Source of the DNA: Candidatus Poribacteria bacterium
GTDB lineage: Bacteria; Poribacteria; DTPJ01; WJIO01
Assembly (NCBI GenBank): GCA_014730235.1
Contig: WJIO01000160.1
Span: forward strand, 1-19,230
DNA length: 19,230 bases
Reading direction: 5' to 3'
The position numbers and the translations under genes were made by a program. Positions 1,342 to 18,161 of the stretch are shown piece by piece; the stretch's first letter is position 1, and every line of letters starts with the position of its first letter. Below the pieces are notes generated by a model, which saw only the letters and a list, made by a program, of their open reading frames with translations, had not been told where the DNA came from and did not search any database.

Positions 1342-2412
1342 TTAATCATGAGGTAATATTATAGTTTTGATTACATTATCAGAATAATCATGGAGCATCT
1401 CAAAAGCTGGTGTTATTTCATCAAGCGGGAATCTATGGGTTATCAGTTTTTCCACTTCCACCTTACCTGATGCTATCATATCTACAGCTTTGGGGAAATC
1501 CAGGGGGTTAAACCTTCTGACAAAGCTTATAGTAAGACCGGTTCTTCGGGCTGTTATAGCTTTAATAGGTATGTGATCCTGTACAGTGGGAATACCTACA
1601 ACAATCACTGTTCCACCGGGCTTTACCAGTTCCGCCGATAGTTGATAGGCTTTTTCATCACCTGAGACCTCAAAGGTAACATCAACTCCCTTTCCATTGG
1701 TCAAATCTATTATTTTTTCCATTGGAGATTCTGTATCCGGGTTTATGATTTCATCTGCTCCTAATTCCTTTGCCAGATCAAGACGATAGTTTAACGGTTC
1801 AAGAACGTATACTTTTTCAGGATCGCTGATTGCCCGGGCTGTCTGCATTAAAAGCAATCCTTGCGGCCCTGCACCTATTACGGCAATGATTTTGCCTGAC
1901 AACGAACCAATAATTTTTTCCGCGCTGGACATAGCGTTTATCCCCACGTTTACCGGTTCGGCTATTGTTCCCCATTCTAAAGGCATATCATCGGGTATAC
2001 GGTGGACATTGCGTTCCGGAACGGTGTAATACTGTTGATATCCACCATCTACCGGAGGTAGGCTCATAAACTTAAGTTCACGACAGAGATTCGGAGAACC
2101 AGACACACACATATCACATTTACCGCACCATATACTGGGATCAATGGCAACTTTCGCCTCTGCAAGACTCTTGTCCTTTACATCTTCACCAATATCAGCT
2201 ACAATACCCGCCAACTCATGCCCCTGGACAACGCATGTCCCATCCGGCACATTTGGCATACCATAATACCAGTATTTAACTTCTGTGGCGCATATACAGG
2301 TGTGGGTTGATTTTATCAATATATCATCACCCTTGACAGATGGCATCTCCCGGTATTGTATACCCATGTCCCAAGGCCCACAAAGTATCACTGATTTATT
2401 TTTATTATTCAA
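1342..2412 (-). CDS. Zinc-dependent medium-chain alcohol/polyol dehydrogenase
   Basis: MDR-superfamily oxidoreductase that interconverts a secondary alcohol and a ketone using NAD(P). The structural zinc site is CGKCDMC with a fourth Cys eight residues on (Cys96, 99, 102, 110). Catalytic zinc ligands are expected at Cys41 (CAT), His65-Glu66 (GHE) and Glu152. The Rossmann motif GAGPQG is at 180-185. The reading frame opens at a TTG at 2433, but I place the start at the TTG at 2410-2412, because AGGAGG lies 6 nt upstream of it. That gives 356 residues, usual for sorbitol/threonine dehydrogenase-like enzymes. The substrate cannot be read from sequence. It is divergent from the glycyl radical enzyme and first in a unit with the NusG-II and Gx genes, which are unrelated in function. 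Confidence 0.88.
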   Translation of the reverse strand: MNNKNKSVILCGPWDMGIQYREMPSVKGDDILIKSTHTCICATEVKYWYYGMPNVPDGTCVVQGHELAGIVADIGEDVKDKSLAEAKVAIDPSIWCGKCDMCVSGSPNLCRELKFMSLPPVDGGYQQYYTVPERNVHRIPDDMPLEWGTIAEPVNVGINAMSSAEKIIGSLSGKIIAVIGAGPQGLLLMQTARAISDPEKVYVLEPLNYRLDLAKELGADEIINPDTESPMEKIIDLTNGKGVDVTFEVSGDEKAYQLSAELVKPGGTVIVVGIPTVQDHIPIKAITARRTGLTISFVRRFNPLDFPKAVDMIASGKVEVEKLITHRFPLDEITPAFEMLHDYSDNVIKTIILPHD

Positions 2413-2587
2413 AAATATCCTCCTGAATTTCAACTTTCATCCCATTGATATTCTACCTTATTTACAAACATACTCCACCAATAGCTGTCGCATCTTACCC
2501 ACGCCTGTCGCTCTTCCTTATCTCTGTTTTTTACTTTTGCATCATTATAACATGCTTTTATAACATACTCAACCAGGAACGTTCTAA

Positions 2588-2851: not shown

Positions 2852-2915
2852 AATCTTACTCCGTTAGTCTCTTGAAAACTATAAATTGTTGATTTTCCTG
2901 TTGGAGGTGTTAGTT

Positions 2916-5087
2916 ATGAACGAAAGAATTTCCATGATGCGGGAACGGGCCATGACGCATCTTCCCGGTGGTTATCCTCATGCTGAAAAACACCGCAGGG
3001 AATCTATGGCAGAAACAGAGGGAGAACCTGCAGTTATTCGTGAAGCAAAAGCCATTGCCAACGCCTTTCGCCACAGGATGCTGGCGATCCACGATGGCGA
3101 ACTGGTAGTAGGTGACCGACCAAGACACAAAGCTGATAATATAAAAATGGGGATATTTGGACGCAGGCAGTGGACAGGTAAGAATATGATTCCCATTGAT
3201 GATCATCTGGAAAGATTTTTTCAGGAAGGTATATTATCCTGGGCAGGAAATCACAAAACATTGGACTACGACACAGTATTTCAAATCGGTTTTAAAGGTC
3301 TCTGCCAACAGATTGATGACAGGATCTTAAGACTTAAAGAAGATGAGAATGATTACGAAGAAAAAAGGAATTTCCTGAAAGCCCTTAAAATTGTTGCTGA
3401 AGGTTACATTGACCTGAGTAATCGCTACGGAGATTATGCCCTTGAGCTATCTCAGAAAGAATCAGACCCTCAACGCAGGGCCGAACTGGAAACTATTTCC
3501 AGAAACTGCCGAAGGGTTCCGGCAAATCCGCCGGAAAATTTCTGGGAAGCCTGCCAATGTGCCTGGTTTTCATTCTTTTTTGTGCCGGATGCCCCGGGCC
3601 GGGTGGATCAATACCTTTACCCAACTTACAAAAATGATATACAAAAAGGCACTTTAACGAGGGATTTCGCCAAAGACCTGATAAGCAACTTATGGATCAA
3701 ATATTTCGAGCTTGTTGGCCCCCAGGGTGGAGTCAGCGCCCACAATCATCTAACTCTGGGCGGCGTGAAACCCGACGGAAGCGATGCCACCAACGAGGTG
3801 ACAGCCTTATGCCTTGAGGTTACAGAAGAACTAAAGATTCATCGTCCGCAGGTAGGATTTCGCTGGAATCGCAATACGCCGCCGGAAATATTGAAAAAAG
3901 CCGTTGGAGTTATGCGAGCCAGAACCGGCAACCCGGACTTTTGCAGCGATGAGCAGATCGTTCCTGCTCTGGTAAACATAGGTGTCAGCACCGAAGATGC
4001 CCGTAATTTTTCCCTTTCCGGTTGTCATGAGGTAATAGTAACAGGTATGTCCCAGATGGGATCAGTAGAAGGTTTTATCAATATGCCCCGGACCATCAGC
4101 ATTGCTCTTGGGCTTGAAAAGAACTTTGAAAACAGCGATGATTTATCAAATATTGACAGCTATGACAAACTATGGGAACGGCTTACAGAAATAATGGAGA
4201 TATTTGCCAAAGCTGCCCACGAAGCATCATTATCCAGAGACAGACATTTTGCCCAGCACACCGGAGGTTATCTGGAAGCCTCTCTGGTTACCAGGGATTG
4301 CATCGAAAAGGCCCTTGGCTATACCCAGGGTGGGGCCCGTTATAATTTCTGCAACTGGGATATAATCGGGGTTACAAATCTGGCTGATTCCCTGCTTGCA
4401 ATCCGTAAGCTGGTTTTTGAGGATAAAAACCTGACTCTGGAAGAACTGAAGGATATACTGTCTTCCAACTGGGAAGGACATGAACAGCTTCGCAGGAAGA
4501 TTCTGAATCAGCTTCCCCACTTCGGCAATAATAGCGATGAAATTGATAATCTCACCGGTCAGATCATAGAAACCTTTGACAAAATAATGAAAAATCGGAA
4601 ACCTTTCCGGGGTGGAGAATATATTCTTGGGACCCTGGCTGGCGGGGAGAATATGCACATAGAATTCGGTAGGGTTACAGGCGCAACACCCGACGGAAGG
4701 AAAGCCGGATCACCCCTGGCCGATAGCGTTGGCCCTGCACAGGGACTTGACCGACAGGGGGTTACTTCCATGCTAAACTCAGTCTCAAAATTGCCTCACA
4801 GGTTACTGCCAACAGCCACATCATTAAATGTCAAACTCGATCCAAAACTGCTTGAAACTGAAGACGGTATAGAAAAAGTGGCATCACTAATTGAAAGTCA
4901 CTTCCTGTCCGGTGGTCAGCAGATGCAGTTTAATTTCTATAACCGGAAGATGCTGATGGATGCGAAAAAAGAACCTGATAAATACGCCGATCTAATGGTT
5001 CGGGTTGCAGGCTACAGCGCGCCTTTTGTCTCACTATGGGCTGATATGCAGGAAGAAATAATTAATCGTACTGAGCATAATATATAG
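2916..5087 (+). CDS. Pyruvate-formate-lyase-like glycyl radical enzyme of unknown substrate
   Basis: Oxygen-sensitive enzyme that uses a stored glycyl radical to generate a catalytic thiyl radical. The ORF can extend to a TTG at 2886, but the ATG at 2916 follows GGAGGTG (2903-2909) at 6 nt, giving 723 residues. The C-terminal glycyl loop reads RVAGYSAPF with radical Gly699, then EEIINRTEH. The thiyl-radical cysteine is Cys370 in SLSGCHEVIV, with Glu372 in the position of the general base of eliminating members. Other family blocks are YTQGGARYNF, VTNLADSLLAI, GATPDGRKAGSPLAD and LNSVSKLPH. The usual loop in diol, choline and isethionate enzymes is GCVEP, while here it is GCHEV, so the substrate is probably different. 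No radical-SAM activase is encoded in the window. Calling it formate acetyltransferase would be misleading, because PFL has adjacent Cys-Cys. Confidence 0.92.
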   Translation: MNERISMMRERAMTHLPGGYPHAEKHRRESMAETEGEPAVIREAKAIANAFRHRMLAIHDGELVVGDRPRHKADNIKMGIFGRRQWTGKNMIPIDDHLERFFQEGILSWAGNHKTLDYDTVFQIGFKGLCQQIDDRILRLKEDENDYEEKRNFLKALKIVAEGYIDLSNRYGDYALELSQKESDPQRRAELETISRNCRRVPANPPENFWEACQCAWFSFFFVPDAPGRVDQYLYPTYKNDIQKGTLTRDFAKDLISNLWIKYFELVGPQGGVSAHNHLTLGGVKPDGSDATNEVTALCLEVTEELKIHRPQVGFRWNRNTPPEILKKAVGVMRARTGNPDFCSDEQIVPALVNIGVSTEDARNFSLSGCHEVIVTGMSQMGSVEGFINMPRTISIALGLEKNFENSDDLSNIDSYDKLWERLTEIMEIFAKAAHEASLSRDRHFAQHTGGYLEASLVTRDCIEKALGYTQGGARYNFCNWDIIGVTNLADSLLAIRKLVFEDKNLTLEELKDILSSNWEGHEQLRRKILNQLPHFGNNSDEIDNLTGQIIETFDKIMKNRKPFRGGEYILGTLAGGENMHIEFGRVTGATPDGRKAGSPLADSVGPAQGLDRQGVTSMLNSVSKLPHRLLPTATSLNVKLDPKLLETEDGIEKVASLIESHFLSGGQQMQFNFYNRKMLMDAKKEPDKYADLMVRVAGYSAPFVSLWADMQEEIINRTEHNI

Positions 5088-5252: not shown

Positions 5253-5645
5253 ATGGATCGAAGTCAGGATTGGATAAACGAAGCTGAAGGAGATTTAGAA
5301 CACGCCAGAAAAGCCTCGGATGGTGGTTTCCAGAACTGGGCCTGTTTTTCCGCTCAACAGTCCGCAGAAAAAGCTGTTAAGGCGGTTTTTCAGAAAATGG
5401 GAGTGGTAGCCTGGGGACATTCGGTATCAGATTTGCTGAAAGAATTGTCCAAGTCTCATCAAGTTTCAAATGATCTTATCAACAGGGCATTAGAACTTGA
5501 TAAATCATATATATCTGCCCGTTATCCCGATGCTCATCCATCAGGTTCTCCCAGAGATAGATTTACTATTGATGAAGCCAGGAGGCTTATAAATTATGCA
5601 GAGCAAATCTTCCGGTTCTGTTCAGTTTTATTATCCTCAATTTAG
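5253..5645 (+). CDS. HEPN domain protein (partner of MNT nucleotidyltransferase)
   Basis: The 130-residue all-alpha HEPN protein has the family block ACFSAQQSAEKAVKAVF (residues 30-46) and the ARYPDA signature at 89-94. Arg90-YPDA-His95 fits the R-x4-6-H motif associated with HEPN ribonucleases. Such proteins are encoded with minimal nucleotidyltransferases as HepT/MntA-like toxin-antitoxin pairs or as pairs of unknown role. The downstream nucleotidyltransferase overlaps it by 50 nt in another frame. The ribosome binding site is weak (GGA, 5243-5245), and the target duplication of the upstream MITE includes part of it. Toxicity is not demonstrable from sequence. Confidence 0.85.
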   Translation: MDRSQDWINEAEGDLEHARKASDGGFQNWACFSAQQSAEKAVKAVFQKMGVVAWGHSVSDLLKELSKSHQVSNDLINRALELDKSYISARYPDAHPSGSPRDRFTIDEARRLINYAEQIFRFCSVLLSSI

Positions 5646-5949
5646 CAGAAAAGAGATAATCCAGAAGCTTAAGGACAATATTAAATTTCTTGAGAAAAAG
5701 CTTCCTTTATCTCTGATTGTGTTATTTGGATCTTATGCAAAGGATAATTATACTGCGGCAAGCGATATAGATTTAATGGTCATTTATAAGGGACAAGAAA
5801 TAAAAAATGCCTTTGAAATAGTAAAAAAAACTATCCCTATACCCCGTCTTGAACCCCATGTATACTCGGAAAATAATTATACGAAACTGGAAGATACAAT
5901 TCAAAGTATGATCAGGGATGGTGTTGTCTTATATGATAAAAAGAGCTAA
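5596..5949 (+). CDS. MNT-type minimal nucleotidyltransferase
   Basis: The 117-residue protein of the DNA polymerase beta-like nucleotidyltransferase fold carries the motif GSYAKDNYTAASDIDL, with Gly45-Ser46 and the metal-binding pair Asp57 and Asp59. The third acidic position of larger family members is not obvious and may be replaced in the LEPHVY stretch (residues 85-90), which is common in HEPN-linked members. The start is supported by GGAGG at 5581-5585, 10 nt upstream, so the gene begins inside the HEPN gene with a 50-nt overlap. In characterised pairs the MNT partner AMPylates and neutralises the HEPN toxin. Here that is inference from family and arrangement. Confidence 0.85.
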   Translation: MQSKSSGSVQFYYPQFSRKEIIQKLKDNIKFLEKKLPLSLIVLFGSYAKDNYTAASDIDLMVIYKGQEIKNAFEIVKKTIPIPRLEPHVYSENNYTKLEDTIQSMIRDGVVLYDKKS

Positions 5950-5991
5950 ATTCTCGTTGCTATATATCTATGTATTAAAGAAGGAGAAATG

Positions 5992-7425
5992 ATGGTAAAG
6001 CCGGACAGTGTTTTTAAAACATTTTCTTTATTTCTGAATGATATGCTGGGAGATAAATATACAGAAGCGTTAGACAAAGCATATCAAATCCTTAAAGAAT
6101 CCCCGAAGGAAAAACTGAGAAAAATGGTAGGGAGAAAGATAAAGGAAATACCTGAATTCCCCCAGCTTGATAAAAGGGGCTTTGTTGAAAGCTACCAAAA
6201 ACCAATTGAGGATGATATACTGGCAGGATATGGTTTATTTAAAATAACAGAATCCAGAATGCTCCAAATGGATTGGACAGGTGGACACTATCAGCTTCCA
6301 TTAGGTTATCATTTCAGAAATTTGGATAGAATACTTGTTACTGCTAGAGAACATGGTATTATAGACGATACCCATAACAACACGCCGGGTCAAGCAGTAA
6401 AACTACTTGCTTTTGAGCTTATAAAAAGCGCGAATAAATACGATGGTGAAGTTGATATAAATAAGCTTAAACAGGTAATTGATGCAAAAGACCGTCTTAA
6501 CCGGGTAACAAGCGTTGATACTGGCACAGTGGCCTCTGGTGCAGCTCTAAAAAGCATACTCTATCGCTTCCGGAATTTACATAAAGATAATATACCTGTG
6601 TTTATAATGCAAGAGGGTAATTATCACGGCACTGACTTCTTCCAGCAATACCTTCGGGGTATGTGGCAGTGGATGTTTACCAATGTTATCGTTGAAGCGG
6701 TAAAGCCAAATGATATAGATCATCTGAATCAAACATTCCAGAAGTATCAGAACGGCGGGAAAGAAAAAGTAGCGGCAGTGATTATGGAGCCAGTTCTGAT
6801 GAATAACAGGGCGATTTACCTGAAACCTGAGTATATATACAGGGCAAAGGAATTGGCGGAAAAGCATGATGCAGTAATGATGCTGGATGAAATTCAGACT
6901 GGCTTCTGGAGTCCTGATATATTTATGGCAAATGAGCTTAAAGGCGTTGCGGATATAATAGCAGTAGGAAAAGGCCTGACGTCGGGTTTTTCGCCATTGG
7001 CTTACATGATATGCAAGAAATATCTGGATAACCAGGATCAATACAGTTCCATAAGCACCAACGGAAACGCGGATATGGCGGCTCTTGCGGGATTGGTTGT
7101 TTTATATTCTATAAGAGAAAATTCATCTCATATCCAGAAAACTGGTGAATATTATATGGAGTGTCTGCAAGATTTACAACAAAAACACCCTAAGAAGATC
7201 ACAGGTATAACCGGATGTCGTCATCTGGCAGGTATAAATATTGTGAATGAAAACATGGCTAAAAAGTTTCATCAGGGATGTCTTGACCAGGGAATATTCC
7301 TGAGATTACAGACATACAAAGCCGGTGCGTGCACTATTATAACCAAACCGGCTGTTATTGCCGATGCTGATGATGTGGACTTTGTTATTAAAAAGCTGAA
7401 TGCTGTATTAGACATTATATCTTGA
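5992..7425 (+). CDS. Class III PLP-dependent aminotransferase, divergent
   Basis: Fold-type I transaminase of the acetylornithine / glutamate-1-semialdehyde class. Of two tandem ATGs, the second (5992) sits 5 nt after AAGGAG and is preferred, giving 477 residues. The PLP phosphate loop is DTGTVASGAALKS, an aromatic/His pair lies in NYHGTDF, cofactor-binding Asp299 is in MLDEIQTGF, and the Schiff-base lysine is Lys327 in AVGKGLTSGFSP. There is an N-terminal extension of roughly 60 residues before the core, and the sequence is clearly diverged from biosynthetic ArgD/HemL. The amino donor and acceptor are unknown. It follows the HEPN/MNT pair by about 40 nt and may share a transcript with the glycyl radical enzyme. 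Confidence 0.88.
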   Translation: MVKPDSVFKTFSLFLNDMLGDKYTEALDKAYQILKESPKEKLRKMVGRKIKEIPEFPQLDKRGFVESYQKPIEDDILAGYGLFKITESRMLQMDWTGGHYQLPLGYHFRNLDRILVTAREHGIIDDTHNNTPGQAVKLLAFELIKSANKYDGEVDINKLKQVIDAKDRLNRVTSVDTGTVASGAALKSILYRFRNLHKDNIPVFIMQEGNYHGTDFFQQYLRGMWQWMFTNVIVEAVKPNDIDHLNQTFQKYQNGGKEKVAAVIMEPVLMNNRAIYLKPEYIYRAKELAEKHDAVMMLDEIQTGFWSPDIFMANELKGVADIIAVGKGLTSGFSPLAYMICKKYLDNQDQYSSISTNGNADMAALAGLVVLYSIRENSSHIQKTGEYYMECLQDLQQKHPKKITGITGCRHLAGINIVNENMAKKFHQGCLDQGIFLRLQTYKAGACTIITKPAVIADADDVDFVIKKLNAVLDIIS

Positions 7426-11182: not shown

Positions 11183-11308
11183 GGTCCTTCCGACTTGAGT
11201 GGGGTAAAGATAAGAAACTTCTTTATGCTGTCATTCCTGATTCAAGCTTTTTGAAAAAGCTTGAATCAGGAATGACAAACTGAAAAAATTTTCAATTATG
11301 ACCACACT
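11183..11308 (+). mobile_element. MITE-like element copy 4 (right end truncated)
   Basis: Left end GGTCCTTCCGAC, then the usual arm. The core is a perfect palindrome with GATTCAAGC...GCTTGAATC, and the right arm runs only to ACCACACT. The expected last 15 bp (AAACCCGGAAGAACC in other copies) are missing and coding sequence follows directly. No target duplication can therefore be seen. The right arm contains the last codons and stop of the minus-strand glycosidase-like gene. The palindrome lies between two convergent genes and may act as a transcript-end hairpin for both. Confidence 0.85.
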
Positions 11309-13082
11309 GGAGATCCACAATCCGTATCTCCCCCGGCGGAATTTCCATACTGAATTTATTACCATCCACAGGTATCTCCCGTTCAAGATACCACTCATAA
11401 ACACCATTGATTTCACCATATTTAAGTGTAATTTCAACATTTTTCTTCTGGCTTAAATCCAGCTTTACAGGCGTCATCCTTTCCTTTGTTACGCCGTGAT
11501 TGTTTATTAAGCCTATGAGCCAGCCGCTACGGGTGCGGTTCAGCATAAACTGGATTTCGCCGGAAATTTTCACCGGCATATAATCATCATAAAGGTCTAA
11601 AAGTATGGATCGAACCTCGTCTTTAAAGCTTTTTTCGTAAGGTAAAAGCTCAACGCCTCTTTTACGCTTTTCCAGCGTCGCCTGATCCGCTCCCCAATGA
11701 GCTGGTGTATACCATCTTTCAATATCAATCTTTTTTGGTAATTCATCAGGGTTAAAGCCAAAGGTTTCCACAAATCCAGAGGATTTCAGGGATTCGACTA
11801 CAGAACCAAGCTGTTCTATATGGGCATAGGTCAAATAAAGCCTTCCACCTGATTTGACGTAATTACGGAGCTTATCAACTGTTTCGGGGTTAAATTCATG
11901 TTTACCAAGACAGAATAACACCGGGTAGCTCTGGATAACTTCATCAGGCGCGGTATTCAGCAAGACGTCGAAGGAATCTCCATAGGGTGAGTCCACCAGG
12001 CGGCGGTCTTCCTGCTCAATGTCAATACCGGGGATGAAATCTATATACATGGAGCCGGGAAAGAGGATATCCAGAAAGAGAGATATTTCCCGGTCTGACA
12101 ATTCAGGTTGCAGGACATTCCAGGGCCGGGGTTGAGTAAGGGGAAAGCCGTTGAAGCCGCAGTATTCATCAAGCATAATGGAAAAGGGCGTATATGGAAC
12201 GCCAATTTCCGGGTGTACTCTGGTAACTTCCATAAATTTCTGGGCCCTTTTGCCGATGGGAGACAGGGAAATCCGTTTATCCTTCGGTTGACTCCAGTTT
12301 TGTTCGGGCCTGCCGTTAAAGAAATTAACCTGGCAGTTTTCGGGACATACTATAGCAGCACCTGATAGCCATCCCACATACCACATCCGGGCCAGCAATG
12401 AAGGCGAATGTCCACCGTTGGGAATTGCTATGCCGCCCTTTGATATACCTTCCAGCACCTTTTCTTCGTCAAGATTATGGGGTGTATATTCGTCTTCGCC
12501 CTCCTGAAATATTGGTATTGTTCCCCCAAACCACTGGGACGGCTGGACGTAAAAGGGTATCCGGTTTTGACGGGCAGCACCCCGCAGAAATGCGATCTGG
12601 GCCTGCATGGCTATGATATTCTCACCAGTTTCCAGACCGATCATATCACAACCCCACTGGGCCCCATGGGGAGAATACCAGGAGTGCCCTGTCAGGGAGT
12701 AAAACGGTTTTCCCTCCTCTATTTTACCGCCGCCGTGCTGAGCTTCACCGATTAACGAAAGGTAATGTTTGTGCATCCATTGGTAACATTCCCTGCGATT
12801 TTTACCTTCCGGGCGCAGATTCCATCCCCATTCCGTCGCCCGGGATTCCACAGGGTGCGGAAAATCTGGGCCTTCCCATGTGGGCGTAAGAAGCTTTTGC
12901 ACCTTACATTCATGAGCTACCCGTTGATAGTTCTTCGACCAATCACCGCCGTAGCTCAGGAAAATAAATGACCTGTCAGCCCAATGACGAACCTGCCAGG
13001 GATTTTTATTAAGTTCATCAAAATCAGTTACATCAGAGAAAGAAGCACTAAAAGTATATAGGAGAAGCAATGGTAAATACAT
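11292..13082 (-). CDS. Secreted glycoside-hydrolase-like protein with GATase-like domain
   Basis: The 596-residue protein is not a family I can name with certainty. The start MYLPLLLLYTFSASFSD looks like a short signal peptide. Residues of roughly 20-340 are rich in Trp, Gly and His, with barrel-like blocks such as SLTGHSWYSPHGAQWG. A segment SFDVLLNTAPDEVIQSYPVL...LRNYVKSGGRLYLTYAH resembles the class I glutamine amidotransferase-like (trimerisation) domain of GH42-type beta-galactosidases. The C-terminus is a beta-sandwich ending GEIRIVDL. This suggests a carbohydrate-active or carbohydrate-binding role. The ATG is 1 nt after the upstream YCF48-like stop (TAA-T-ATG), so translation is coupled. 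The last residues QCGHN and the TGA come from, or straddle, MITE copy 4. Confidence 0.65.
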   Translation of the reverse strand: MYLPLLLLYTFSASFSDVTDFDELNKNPWQVRHWADRSFIFLSYGGDWSKNYQRVAHECKVQKLLTPTWEGPDFPHPVESRATEWGWNLRPEGKNRRECYQWMHKHYLSLIGEAQHGGGKIEEGKPFYSLTGHSWYSPHGAQWGCDMIGLETGENIIAMQAQIAFLRGAARQNRIPFYVQPSQWFGGTIPIFQEGEDEYTPHNLDEEKVLEGISKGGIAIPNGGHSPSLLARMWYVGWLSGAAIVCPENCQVNFFNGRPEQNWSQPKDKRISLSPIGKRAQKFMEVTRVHPEIGVPYTPFSIMLDEYCGFNGFPLTQPRPWNVLQPELSDREISLFLDILFPGSMYIDFIPGIDIEQEDRRLVDSPYGDSFDVLLNTAPDEVIQSYPVLFCLGKHEFNPETVDKLRNYVKSGGRLYLTYAHIEQLGSVVESLKSSGFVETFGFNPDELPKKIDIERWYTPAHWGADQATLEKRKRGVELLPYEKSFKDEVRSILLDLYDDYMPVKISGEIQFMLNRTRSGWLIGLINNHGVTKERMTPVKLDLSQKKNVEITLKYGEINGVYEWYLEREIPVDGNKFSMEIPPGEIRIVDLQCGHN

Positions 13083-13083
13083 A

Positions 13084-14955
13084 TTATTTAACGCTGCCCT
13101 TGATTATATTACCCCATTCACCGGCAATCCATAGAGAGCCATCAGCAGCAGGAACAATATCTCTGAGATTTGCAGTTGTTGGAAGTTCCACTGCGTTCCA
13201 TGTTTCGCCGCCGTCCTTGGTTTCAAAAAGCGAACCGGAGTTACCAACAATCCAGCCGTTATTTGCATCGGCAAAATACACGGAATTCAGGTGTTCATAG
13301 CTGTAGCATCGCTGGGAGTTCCATGTTTCCCCACCGTCCTCGGTTTTCAGGATAATGCCATATGTACCTACTATCCAGCCTTTCATATTGTCTACAAAAA
13401 ATACATTCAATAGATCATAGGCAGTATATGTTGTCAATCTTACCCAGCCGTCACCTCCGTTGGTAGAGCGCAGGGCAAGACCGCCAATACCTACAGCCCA
13501 ACCATTTACATTATCAACAAAGTTGATCCCGTCTATGCTCCAGGCCACCTGAGTGTCCTTCTGAGTCCATGTGCTTCCACCGTCGGTTGTACCGACTATA
13601 AGCCCATTATTACCGCACATAAGCATAGTCTGGGGATCAATTATACTTATATCGTTCATAGTGCCTTCGGGTATACCTTCCAGGGGTGTCCATGTTTTAC
13701 CGCCGTCAGTTGTATTTATAACCGATGGTGTAGCTGCTGAAGTGACTATATAACCGTTATTGGCATCTACAAAATTTATATTCTGTATATTGGCGCCAGT
13801 TCCTATATCAACTAAAGACCATGTTTTACCAGCATCTTCGCTGTGATATACCATTCCGTTTGCACCTGCACACCATATACTGCTTTCAGAAACCGGAGAA
13901 ACGCTGGTCAGAACGTCTGCACTTACCTTTACCTGCTGGCTCCATGTTTCCCCGCCGTCTTTTGTAATGAAAATAGCACCATATTCACCTACAGTGCAGC
14001 CCGTTTGTGAACCGACAAAATCAACATCCATCAGACGCAGAGCTTTTACCTCCACAGGTTCCAGGCCTGAATCAGTCACTTTTGCCATAGTTCCTCTGGT
14101 AGTAACACCGATCATATTGCCATCACCCACGGAAACTGCGTTTAAAAAACCGGGAGGGCCTCCACGTCTTCTGGGAGCTTCACCTTCAGCCGGTTGTGGC
14201 GGGGGTGGAATCATGGATTCCCATGTTTTGCCACCGTCCTGGCTTTGCCATATAGCACCGACACCAAAGGCCCAGCCTTTATTGGCATCGGCAAAGTTTA
14301 CAGAAAATAATGGATTATTATGACTTACGTCTTGCTGTGTCCATGTTTTGCCACCATCTGTAGTAGTTAATACAGCCGCTGCCGGTGATCCATGAGGAAT
14401 ACGTCTCTGTCCCCCTACAACCCATCCGGTGCTGGCATCTGTGAAATACACATCATTCAGCGGAAGTGGAATACCATGCTGACGAGTCCATGTATTCCCA
14501 CCGTCATTTGTATGAAATACTATACCCTCATGTCCTATGAACTGTTCTACATTTCCTGTAGCCCATCCCGTCTGGCTATCCAGGAAATATATACTGGTCA
14601 TATAAGTTTTGGTATTCATTTCCTGGTTTTGCCATGTGTTTCCGCCATCCTTTGTATGAAGTATCGTCCCAGCATCTCCCGCTATCCAGCCTGTCATGTT
14701 ATCCACAAACATAACGCTTTTGAGATTTTCGGTAACGCCGCTTTCCTGGGATGACCATTTTTCCCCACCATCGACGGATGCAGCTATAACACCTCTATCA
14801 CCAACAGCCCAGACATGACTGTCATCAGTAAAAGTCACGTCCCGGAAATGGGTAGACCAATCGGCCTGACGAACCATAGTCCATTCACCAAAGGCTGATG
14901 TGCCAAAAGTGAGGGTTATCAATACAAGAACAAAGCAAAACATATATTTTCTCAT
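13084..14955 (-). CDS. Secreted YCF48/BNR-repeat beta-propeller protein (second in operon)
   Basis: The 623-residue protein has a signal peptide (about residues 1-23, Lys/Arg then FCFVLVLITLTFG) and no later membrane segment. It is built from about 12 repeats of roughly 45 residues, each of the form ...F.D...GW.VG..G.I..T.DGG.TW.... The Asp-box-like DGG(K/E/N)TW hairpin appears at 62, 103, 151 and 200 and onward. This matches the YCF48-like / BNR family. The repeat number fits two tandem seven-bladed propellers better than one. Residues 249-269 form an inserted proline- and arginine-rich loop. In cyanobacteria Ycf48 helps assemble photosystem II, but nothing photosynthetic is here, so only the fold is transferred. 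AGGAGGC precedes the ATG. Confidence 0.88.
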   Translation of the reverse strand: MRKYMFCFVLVLITLTFGTSAFGEWTMVRQADWSTHFRDVTFTDDSHVWAVGDRGVIAASVDGGEKWSSQESGVTENLKSVMFVDNMTGWIAGDAGTILHTKDGGNTWQNQEMNTKTYMTSIYFLDSQTGWATGNVEQFIGHEGIVFHTNDGGNTWTRQHGIPLPLNDVYFTDASTGWVVGGQRRIPHGSPAAAVLTTTDGGKTWTQQDVSHNNPLFSVNFADANKGWAFGVGAIWQSQDGGKTWESMIPPPPQPAEGEAPRRRGGPPGFLNAVSVGDGNMIGVTTRGTMAKVTDSGLEPVEVKALRLMDVDFVGSQTGCTVGEYGAIFITKDGGETWSQQVKVSADVLTSVSPVSESSIWCAGANGMVYHSEDAGKTWSLVDIGTGANIQNINFVDANNGYIVTSAATPSVINTTDGGKTWTPLEGIPEGTMNDISIIDPQTMLMCGNNGLIVGTTDGGSTWTQKDTQVAWSIDGINFVDNVNGWAVGIGGLALRSTNGGDGWVRLTTYTAYDLLNVFFVDNMKGWIVGTYGIILKTEDGGETWNSQRCYSYEHLNSVYFADANNGWIVGNSGSLFETKDGGETWNAVELPTTANLRDIVPAADGSLWIAGEWGNIIKGSVK

Positions 14956-16210: not shown

Positions 16211-18037
16211 CTAAAGTTTCTTTTTCAGGATAATGCCCCATTTACCTACAGCCCATAGAGTGCCATCGGCGTAGCATATATCATAGAGTTCGCTTTCCAC
16301 CAATTTCGATATTTCATTCCACGAGGAACCACCATCAGTTGTTTCCAGTATAGTTCCTTCAGCACCCACGATCCAGCCTTTTTGGGGATCTACAAAGATC
16401 ACATCATTCATGTTACCAAAATAACCTGCAGTTCCCATGTTCCACATCATACCGCCATCGGTAGTATACATGTAAGTACCCATGGCACCAACGATCCATC
16501 CTTTTGTATCATCAATGAAAAATACACTGTTCATGTCCGTACCACCGTATATAGGCGCAGGTTTCCACGTCATACCACCATCTTTTGTTTGCAGGGCTTT
16601 GCCAAACTGACCTGTGATCCAACCTTCGTCAGGGTTGGTAAAGTAGGACCTGCGAAGTTCCATCATATCGCCCATGCCGTCACCCTGGGTTATCCATGTT
16701 TTACCACCGTCAAAAGTATGACGTAAAGTTCCAAAATGGCCCACCAGCCAGCCGCGTTTTTCATCTACAAAGAAAGCGTGGTTAAGCTTAAACACTGTAC
16801 CCACATTAACGGATTCCCAGTGTTTTCCGCCGTCGTGAGTGCGTCTTGTTAAACCCATGTCACCGGTTGCCCAGCCGTTATTTTCATCAAAGAATAAAAT
16901 GCTGGAGAGTTCAAAAAGCGAGTTGCTTTGCTGAGTTTTCCAGGTTTTACCTCCGTCATCTGTAAACAAAATAGTACCCGCTGTTCCACAGATCCATCCT
17001 GTTTCAGCATCTATGAAGAATGCGCTTTTAAGGTCGCTGCTGCCGCCTTTTTCGGTCTGGATTTCCCATGTTTTACCTGCATCTGCAGTATGCAGAATAG
17101 TTCCTGATGCGCATGAAAGCCATCCCTCTTCCGGGCTTATAAAGCAACCCTGATATATACGAAGCCCGATCTGAGGATCCTGTACTTCCCATGTTTTACC
17201 TGCATCGGCTGAATGTAATATAGTGCCAAAACCACCCACAGCCCATATATGGTCTGTACCGTAGAAATATATACCGTATAATGGTGATGCCATACCATTG
17301 GGCGTGGGCACATTTGCAGGGAAGCTTTTCCATTCTTCGCCGCCGTTTACTGTACCCATAAGTGTTCCCAGACCACCGACAGCGCCGCCGATTTTATCAT
17401 TGGCGAAATACACATCGGTTATAATACCTGCCTGACCCTGGGATTCACCCATTGGTGGATCCTGAGATTTCCATGTTTTACCACCGTCGGATGTGTGTAA
17501 TATGGTAGCTCCGCCGCCTACACCCCAGGCGTGGGTAGTGCTTCCTGCGCTTATACCCATAATTTCGTTATTGGTATCGGAATTCTGAGCTACCCAGGTA
17601 TTTCCTCCGTCTTCTGTATGTATTATAGTTCCACCATCACCAGATGCCCACCCGACTTTTGAATCGGCAAAGCTTACACTTAATAACCAACTTCGGGTTG
17701 GCGTTTTTTGCTCTATCCATGTCTGACCGCCGTTGGTTGTATGTAAAACAGTTCCATTACCGCCCACTACCCAACCTGTTTGGGGATCTATAAAAGTTAT
17801 AGATTCAAGGTTAAAGGTAACGCCGCTGTTCTGAGGATTCCAGGTTTTACCACCGTCGGTTGTATGGAGTATAACCCCCTGTTTTCCACACGTCCAGCCG
17901 TTTTGTGAATCAATGAAATATACATCAATAAAATCCGTCTGCCATTCGGGATTTCTAACCACCTGCCATGGTCCAGCCATAGCAGTTCCACAAATTAATA
18001 ACATCGCAAATGCTAATAATAAGCCTTTGTATTTCAT
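16211..18037 (-). CDS. Secreted YCF48/BNR-repeat beta-propeller protein (first in operon)
   Basis: The frame opens at 18079, but the ATG at 18035-18037 follows AGGAGGT at 8 nt and begins a classical signal peptide, MKYKGLLLAFAMLLICGTAMA, with cleavage likely after AMA. The mature protein (608 residues in total) has about 13 Asp-box-type repeats (DGGKTW, NGGQTW, DAGKTW, DGGMTW and similar), each ending a roughly 45-residue unit with GW..G..G.I..T. It is a full-length paralogue of the 13084-14955 protein but clearly diverged from it, and lacks the Pro/Arg loop. It is predicted to act outside the cytoplasm as a protein- or ligand-binding scaffold. It is the first gene after the operon promoter. 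Confidence 0.88.
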   Translation of the reverse strand: MKYKGLLLAFAMLLICGTAMAGPWQVVRNPEWQTDFIDVYFIDSQNGWTCGKQGVILHTTDGGKTWNPQNSGVTFNLESITFIDPQTGWVVGGNGTVLHTTNGGQTWIEQKTPTRSWLLSVSFADSKVGWASGDGGTIIHTEDGGNTWVAQNSDTNNEIMGISAGSTTHAWGVGGGATILHTSDGGKTWKSQDPPMGESQGQAGIITDVYFANDKIGGAVGGLGTLMGTVNGGEEWKSFPANVPTPNGMASPLYGIYFYGTDHIWAVGGFGTILHSADAGKTWEVQDPQIGLRIYQGCFISPEEGWLSCASGTILHTADAGKTWEIQTEKGGSSDLKSAFFIDAETGWICGTAGTILFTDDGGKTWKTQQSNSLFELSSILFFDENNGWATGDMGLTRRTHDGGKHWESVNVGTVFKLNHAFFVDEKRGWLVGHFGTLRHTFDGGKTWITQGDGMGDMMELRRSYFTNPDEGWITGQFGKALQTKDGGMTWKPAPIYGGTDMNSVFFIDDTKGWIVGAMGTYMYTTDGGMMWNMGTAGYFGNMNDVIFVDPQKGWIVGAEGTILETTDGGSSWNEISKLVESELYDICYADGTLWAVGKWGIILKKKL

Positions 18038-18161
18038 TACAAAATACCTCCTAAAACAAATATTAGATCTAAACAACAATGGTTAAATTATTCCCGTTAA
18101 AGGAATATTCTATTTCTCAAGTAAACATAAATCAAATGCAAAATACGTTACCTTTGAATTT

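Follow-up and report, generated by a model that had tools for sequence, protein, structure and literature searches.

Glycyl radical enzymes (GREs) carry out demanding anaerobic chemistry and normally are recognized and assigned through a paired activase, which usually is dedicated to a single GRE. In the current study, we analyzed a 19.2-kb window (the whole stretch of DNA under analysis, and the entire contig C81) from a Candidatus Poribacteria genome. It encodes a GRE whose closest described relative, the B12-independent glycerol/1,2-propanediol dehydratase (1R8W, 5I2A, and 9RCO), is its best sequence match and is among its best structure matches. In 1R8W, His281, Ser282, and Asp447 are residues of the glycerol/diol dehydratase active site; none of the three is present in the window GRE, which has Val384 at the Asp position. 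The features of the locus are listed here.

1342..2433, minus strand: divergent zinc alcohol dehydrogenase of the threonine/idonate/polyol type (Pfam ADH_N and ADH_zinc_N; NCBIfam scores below cutoffs)
2903..2909, plus strand: ribosome-binding site GGAGGTG, seen in the sequence with a 6-nt spacing to the start codon at 2916
2916..5087, plus strand: GRE of the putative GCHE subfamily, 723 aa (PF02901 and PF01228, 13 orthologs with the same loop, AF2 fold match)
4020..4034, plus strand: thiyl loop GCHEV, comprising Gly369, Cys370 (the radical Cys), His371 (clade specific), Glu372, and Val373 (SGCHE invariant in 14 of 14 sequences)
4065..4067, plus strand: Val384, equivalent to glycerol dehydratase Asp447, the Asp being missing (alignment to 1R8W)
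4341..4358, plus strand: signature YNxCNW (Tyr476 to Trp481) in place of diol dehydratase YNFSGP (alignment; Y476, N477, C479, N480, and W481 invariant)
4641..4658, plus strand: signature GGENMH (residues 576 to 581), in a loop 2 residues longer than that of glycerol dehydratase (alignment; E578, N579, and H581 invariant)
5001..5018, plus strand: glycyl radical motif RVAGYS (residues 696 to 701) with Gly699 (RVAGY invariant in 14 of 14; PF01228 match)

The frame at 2916-5087 (plus strand) has no internal stop and yields a 723-aa product, and its ATG start at 2916 is common to the aligned orthologs. Both Pfam matches, PFL-like (PF02901; 2e-130) and Gly_radical (PF01228; 2.1e-27), lie far above their gathering scores. 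A preliminary description of this DNA had claimed a complete glycyl loop at Gly699 together with the thiyl residue Cys370 and Glu372. The numbering was right, and these residues, the latter two sitting within SLSGCHEV, are invariant in the orthologs. The GRE motif has been defined as RVXG[FWY] (PMC11528403), and the protein carries RVAGY, with Gly699, in addition to the mid-protein radical Cys370. On the best reading of the sequence, the window gene is predicted to encode an intact, catalytically competent GRE. The same description held that characterized enzymes read GCVEP at the thiyl loop. All of those we aligned do read GCVE, but the final Pro is confined to the diol dehydratases: HypD reads GCVET, PflD reads GCVEL, and the A. 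fulgidus entry 2F3O reads GCVEI.

Thirteen orthologs (43 to 68% identity) were found in Poribacteria, Latescibacterota, Armatimonadota, Lentisphaerae/Victivallales, and Planctomycetota; those of two other Poribacteria are 62 to 68% identical, and scanning the genome collection with a pattern as the seed yielded further records from Latescibacterota, Armatimonadetes, Victivallales, Lentisphaerae, Phycisphaerae, and Planctomycetota. SGCHE is read by all 14 sequences, and Cys370, His371, Glu372, His113, and Gly699 are invariant among them, across several phyla and at down to 43% identity, which argues for selection. Because all 13 orthologs share GCHE, the loop is not a sequencing oddity. One Planctomycetota ortholog (L049, 4112-6805) is 897 aa long rather than the usual ca. 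725 aa and has several in-frame inserts, some of them repeat-like. A search for relatives in viral contigs found none.

In a tree of 78 GREs, five of them characterized or solved, the GCHE sequences were split from all others by a branch that has 100% SH-aLRT support, and their stem is long (0.61). This was a quick tree without bootstrap, and it does not place the exact sister of the clade. The nearest group consists of uncharacterized short GREs with GCTE, GCSQ, and GCIE loops, the fork being open. The family placement that the preliminary description had called for sets the clade apart from the characterized subfamilies tested. Our literature search on GREs in Armatimonadetes found nothing, and that on Poribacteria and glycyl radicals surfaced only a survey of microcompartments and a phylogeny of ribonucleotide reductases. 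Taken together, the alignments and the tree suggest that the GCHE enzymes are a real, conserved, distinct, and previously unassigned GRE subfamily.

What the His of this loop means is less straightforward. The preliminary description proposed that His371 changes the active site, and one reading is that it is a functional residue defining a new chemistry. It is invariant in 14 of 14 clade members, and His followed by Glu is confined to this clade among the GREs surveyed. However, in a survey of 87 distinct GRE sequences and fragments from these genomes, GCHE (14, all from this clade) stood beside GCVE (11), TCVE (10), GCTE (9), GCWE (7), GCIE (5), and GCNW, GCSQ, TCTE, GCHW, ACWE, and more; outside the clade, the residue following the radical Cys is V, I, T, W, S, N, G, C, Y, Q, or H, Val being typical of the characterized GREs aligned. 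Moreover, the His371 side chain may point away from the substrate, and it could not be placed in the AF2 model, which is unreliable in this region (pLDDT below 50 at 382-384 and 574-579). We therefore regard this reading as unlikely and a changed active site as unproven; given how widely the position varies in uncharacterized GREs of the same genomes, His371 marks the clade without being evidence of altered chemistry and appears to be a fixed lineage marker of the GCHE subfamily.

Other fixed differences say more about the pocket, namely, Val384, the YNxCNW and GGENMH signatures, and the loss of the hairpin that carries His281 and Ser282 in glycerol dehydratase. Hairpin loss is common to neighboring uncharacterized clades, but YNxCNW and the longer GGENMH loop are not. 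The overall fold is less discriminating. The AF2 model (mean pLDDT, 81; pTM, 0.84) has the GRE barrel and matches eliminase-type GRE structures with Z scores of 34 to 36 over ca. 700 residues (root mean square deviation, about 3 Å). Since the propanediol and glycerol dehydratases, CutC, HypD, HplG, and PflD all tie in this range, the fold picks out no eliminase subfamily.

With respect to activation, the preliminary description stated that no activase lies within the window, and an ORF scan of the whole of contig C81 agrees: there is no radical-SAM (CX3CX2C) ORF in these 19.2 kb, although adjacency past this point is invisible, as the contig ends with the window. Nor did any GRE activase adjoin the orthologs at the loci examined. 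A radical-SAM gene next to the G023 ortholog was rejected because its product is spore-photoproduct-lyase-like (97.9 bits; cutoff, 400) and not conserved, and another near GRE L009 proved to be SPASM-like rather than a GRE activase. The preliminary description also reasoned that the activating enzyme has to be encoded in another part of the genome and advised a search for an orphan activase; this view is supported, and such a gene was found. The window genome (92% complete) contains 16 GREs and two activases above the TIGR02494 cutoff, one of which, on C407, adjoins its own GRE. The other (C371:1037-1894; 305 aa; 377.6 bits versus a cutoff of 174.35) has no GRE adjoining it, carries GCPLRCLWC plus an extra ferredoxin-type region, and has a membrane-protein ORF on one side and a UvrC-like gene on the other (names assigned by eye from the sequence). 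G001, G004, G011, G085, G091, and G093 likewise carry related stand-alone activases.

The imbalance is not limited to the window genome. Across 18 GRE-bearing genomes (seven Poribacteria plus eleven genomes of other orthologs, all incomplete, fragmented MAGs, 79 to 92% complete where stated), we counted 155 GREs and 37 activases; only 26 GREs lie within 8 kb of an activase, and 12 activases stand alone. Two further Poribacteria have neither. The pattern is uneven: almost all GREs of G006 and G007 have an activase next to them, and in G001, G004, G091, and G093 none does, G091 and G093 having one stand-alone activase each for 7 and 9 GREs, respectively. A missing adjacent activase therefore is the rule in these genomes and not a peculiarity of the window gene. 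With 16 GREs against two recognizable activases, a few activators probably serve the whole set, and these counts suggest that shared activases probably serve many GREs. It is an even chance, in our view, that an entire fleet of diverse stand-alone GREs in these uncultured lineages, including a GCHE subfamily with its own reaction, depends for its activation on just one or two generalist activases.

Could each orphan GRE instead have a dedicated activase that was missed by the assemblies or the search model? The MAGs are fragmented and, where stated, 79 to 92% complete, and a few of the GREs sit close to a contig end, but a deficit of this size is far too large for 10 to 20% incompleteness. In addition, the next radical-SAM matches in the window genome belong to other families (AmmeMemoRadiSam and MoaA), and the ortholog loci are as bare as the window. 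We consider this explanation improbable. Still less do we credit activation by radical-SAM proteins of another class, for instance, the AmmeMemoRadiSam proteins. These are encoded by four genes in the window genome (G000; contigs C186, C176, C423, and C331) and occur in 17 of the 20 genomes surveyed for them, but G006 has GREs and no such protein, control genomes with no PF01228 match (e.g., Methanocaldococcus jannaschii) do have one, and no adjacency was seen. This idea is weakened by our observations, and we now think it highly improbable.

We lean toward the view that the product of the window gene is a GRE of the elimination type that is catalytically competent and belongs to a new subfamily and that a shared, stand-alone activase acts on it in trans. 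By analogy with established GRE chemistry, a radical-SAM activase would take hydrogen from Gly699, and the resulting glycyl radical would generate a thiyl radical on Cys370, which in turn would pull hydrogen off the substrate; Glu372 would act as the acid/base for loss of the leaving group, in a reaction of the dehydratase or C-X lyase type. The C371 activase is the best candidate for the first step and probably would serve several orphan GREs of the genome. However, this pairing is a tentative one; the C371 product is closest to the activase of HypD (388.8 bits; cutoff, 425), the HypD-like GRE L004 of the same genome may be its real partner, and the usual dedication of activases and the incompleteness of the MAGs weigh on the same side.

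The neighboring genes, which are not conserved across the ortholog loci, are a weak guide to the substrate. The zinc alcohol dehydrogenase is a possible partner of the GRE; no relative of it was found in the ortholog loci. There is an aldo-keto reductase in the window, and Gfo/Idh/MocA oxidoreductases and URO-D-like proteins occur in some ortholog loci. URO-D-like genes are present at 5 of 13 such loci (in L040 and L044 they immediately precede the GRE gene in the same orientation), but the case for them as a conserved operon partner is weak because they also occur on activase contigs. A Cys-X-Glu loop suits eliminases and arylacetate decarboxylases alike. From this loop and the scattered polyol/sugar oxidoreductases, we would guess, with low confidence, at a hydroxylated small molecule, either a polyol or one derived from a sugar.

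Elsewhere in the window, the GRE is directly followed by a HEPN/nucleotidyltransferase (MNT-type) pair in a typical toxin-antitoxin arrangement (5253-5949, plus strand) and then by a class III aminotransferase far under every NCBIfam equivalog cutoff (5989-7425, plus strand). A 596-aa protein (11292-13082, minus strand) has no Pfam or NCBIfam match and a distant likeness to an ORF near the L048 ortholog, and two large Ycf48-like (PSII_BNR) repeat proteins are encoded at 13084-14955 and 16211-18079 (both minus strand), the host presumably being nonphotosynthetic. On contig C399 of the same genome, a paralogous GRE of 916 aa (L006) has an F5/8 type C domain inserted before the barrel (Pfam, 2.1e-12). 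A galactose-binding, discoidin-like module is unexpected within a GRE, and GREs of 914 and 939 aa (G001 and G011) that group with L006 may also have it.

The wider imbalance between GREs and activases is, in our view, a more interesting finding than a single missing activase. A cross-phylum subfamily with no linked activase escapes assignment by activase pairing. Generalist activases, if real, would break the one-enzyme, one-activase pattern. The surplus of GREs makes activase specificity directly testable, with one activase facing many natural partners, and it is also a sign of radical metabolism yet to be explored in Poribacteria, Armatimonadota, and lineages related to them.

It remains to compare the window GRE with known subfamilies, and to ask whether it might be one of these (a diol dehydratase, HypD, CutC, or similar) with a drifted loop. 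The common fold and roughly 21 to 34% identity to solved GREs are compatible with this, but every NCBIfam equivalog was missed by hundreds of bits: HypD, the best (NF043068; 444.2 bits versus a cutoff of 1100), CutC (TIGR04394; 373.3 versus 1050), the HpsG and HpfG sulfopropanediol dehydratases (NF048011 and NF048009; 414.8 and 373.8 versus 1000), the arylacetate decarboxylases (NF033715 and NF033718; 237.9 and 314.9 versus 1150 and 1100), and pyruvate formate-lyase (TIGR01255; 108.6, in the C-terminal part only, versus 994.2), whose Cys-Cys pair is replaced by Gly-Cys in the window GRE. Together with the separate clade and the missing glycerol dehydratase hairpin and Asp447, this makes a known enzyme very doubtful indeed. 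Isethionate sulfite-lyase (IslA/IseG), for which no curated model matched, was compared by fold alone (Z, about 33). HypD (6VXC) has the fold and the Cys-X-Glu loop in common with the window GRE but groups in the tree with L004. PflD/YbiW (8ID0 and 8ID7, with 1,5-anhydrohexitol-6-phosphate ligands according to the PDB titles) is alike in fold and loop architecture and 28 to 32% identical, but PflD reads GCVE and lies far off in the tree. The uncharacterized short GREs of the same genomes (GCTE, GCSQ, and GCIE) also have the shortened D-x-x-GR-DQ hairpin, although they differ at the position after the Cys and have neither YNxCNW nor the longer GGENMH loop. Finally, the glycerol/propanediol dehydratases share the Cys, Glu, and Gly residues and His164 (His113 in the window GRE) at about 30 to 34% identity, but glycerol dehydratase is longer (787 versus 723 aa), and the GCHE, YNxCNW, and GGENMH signatures set the window GRE apart from the diol dehydratases.
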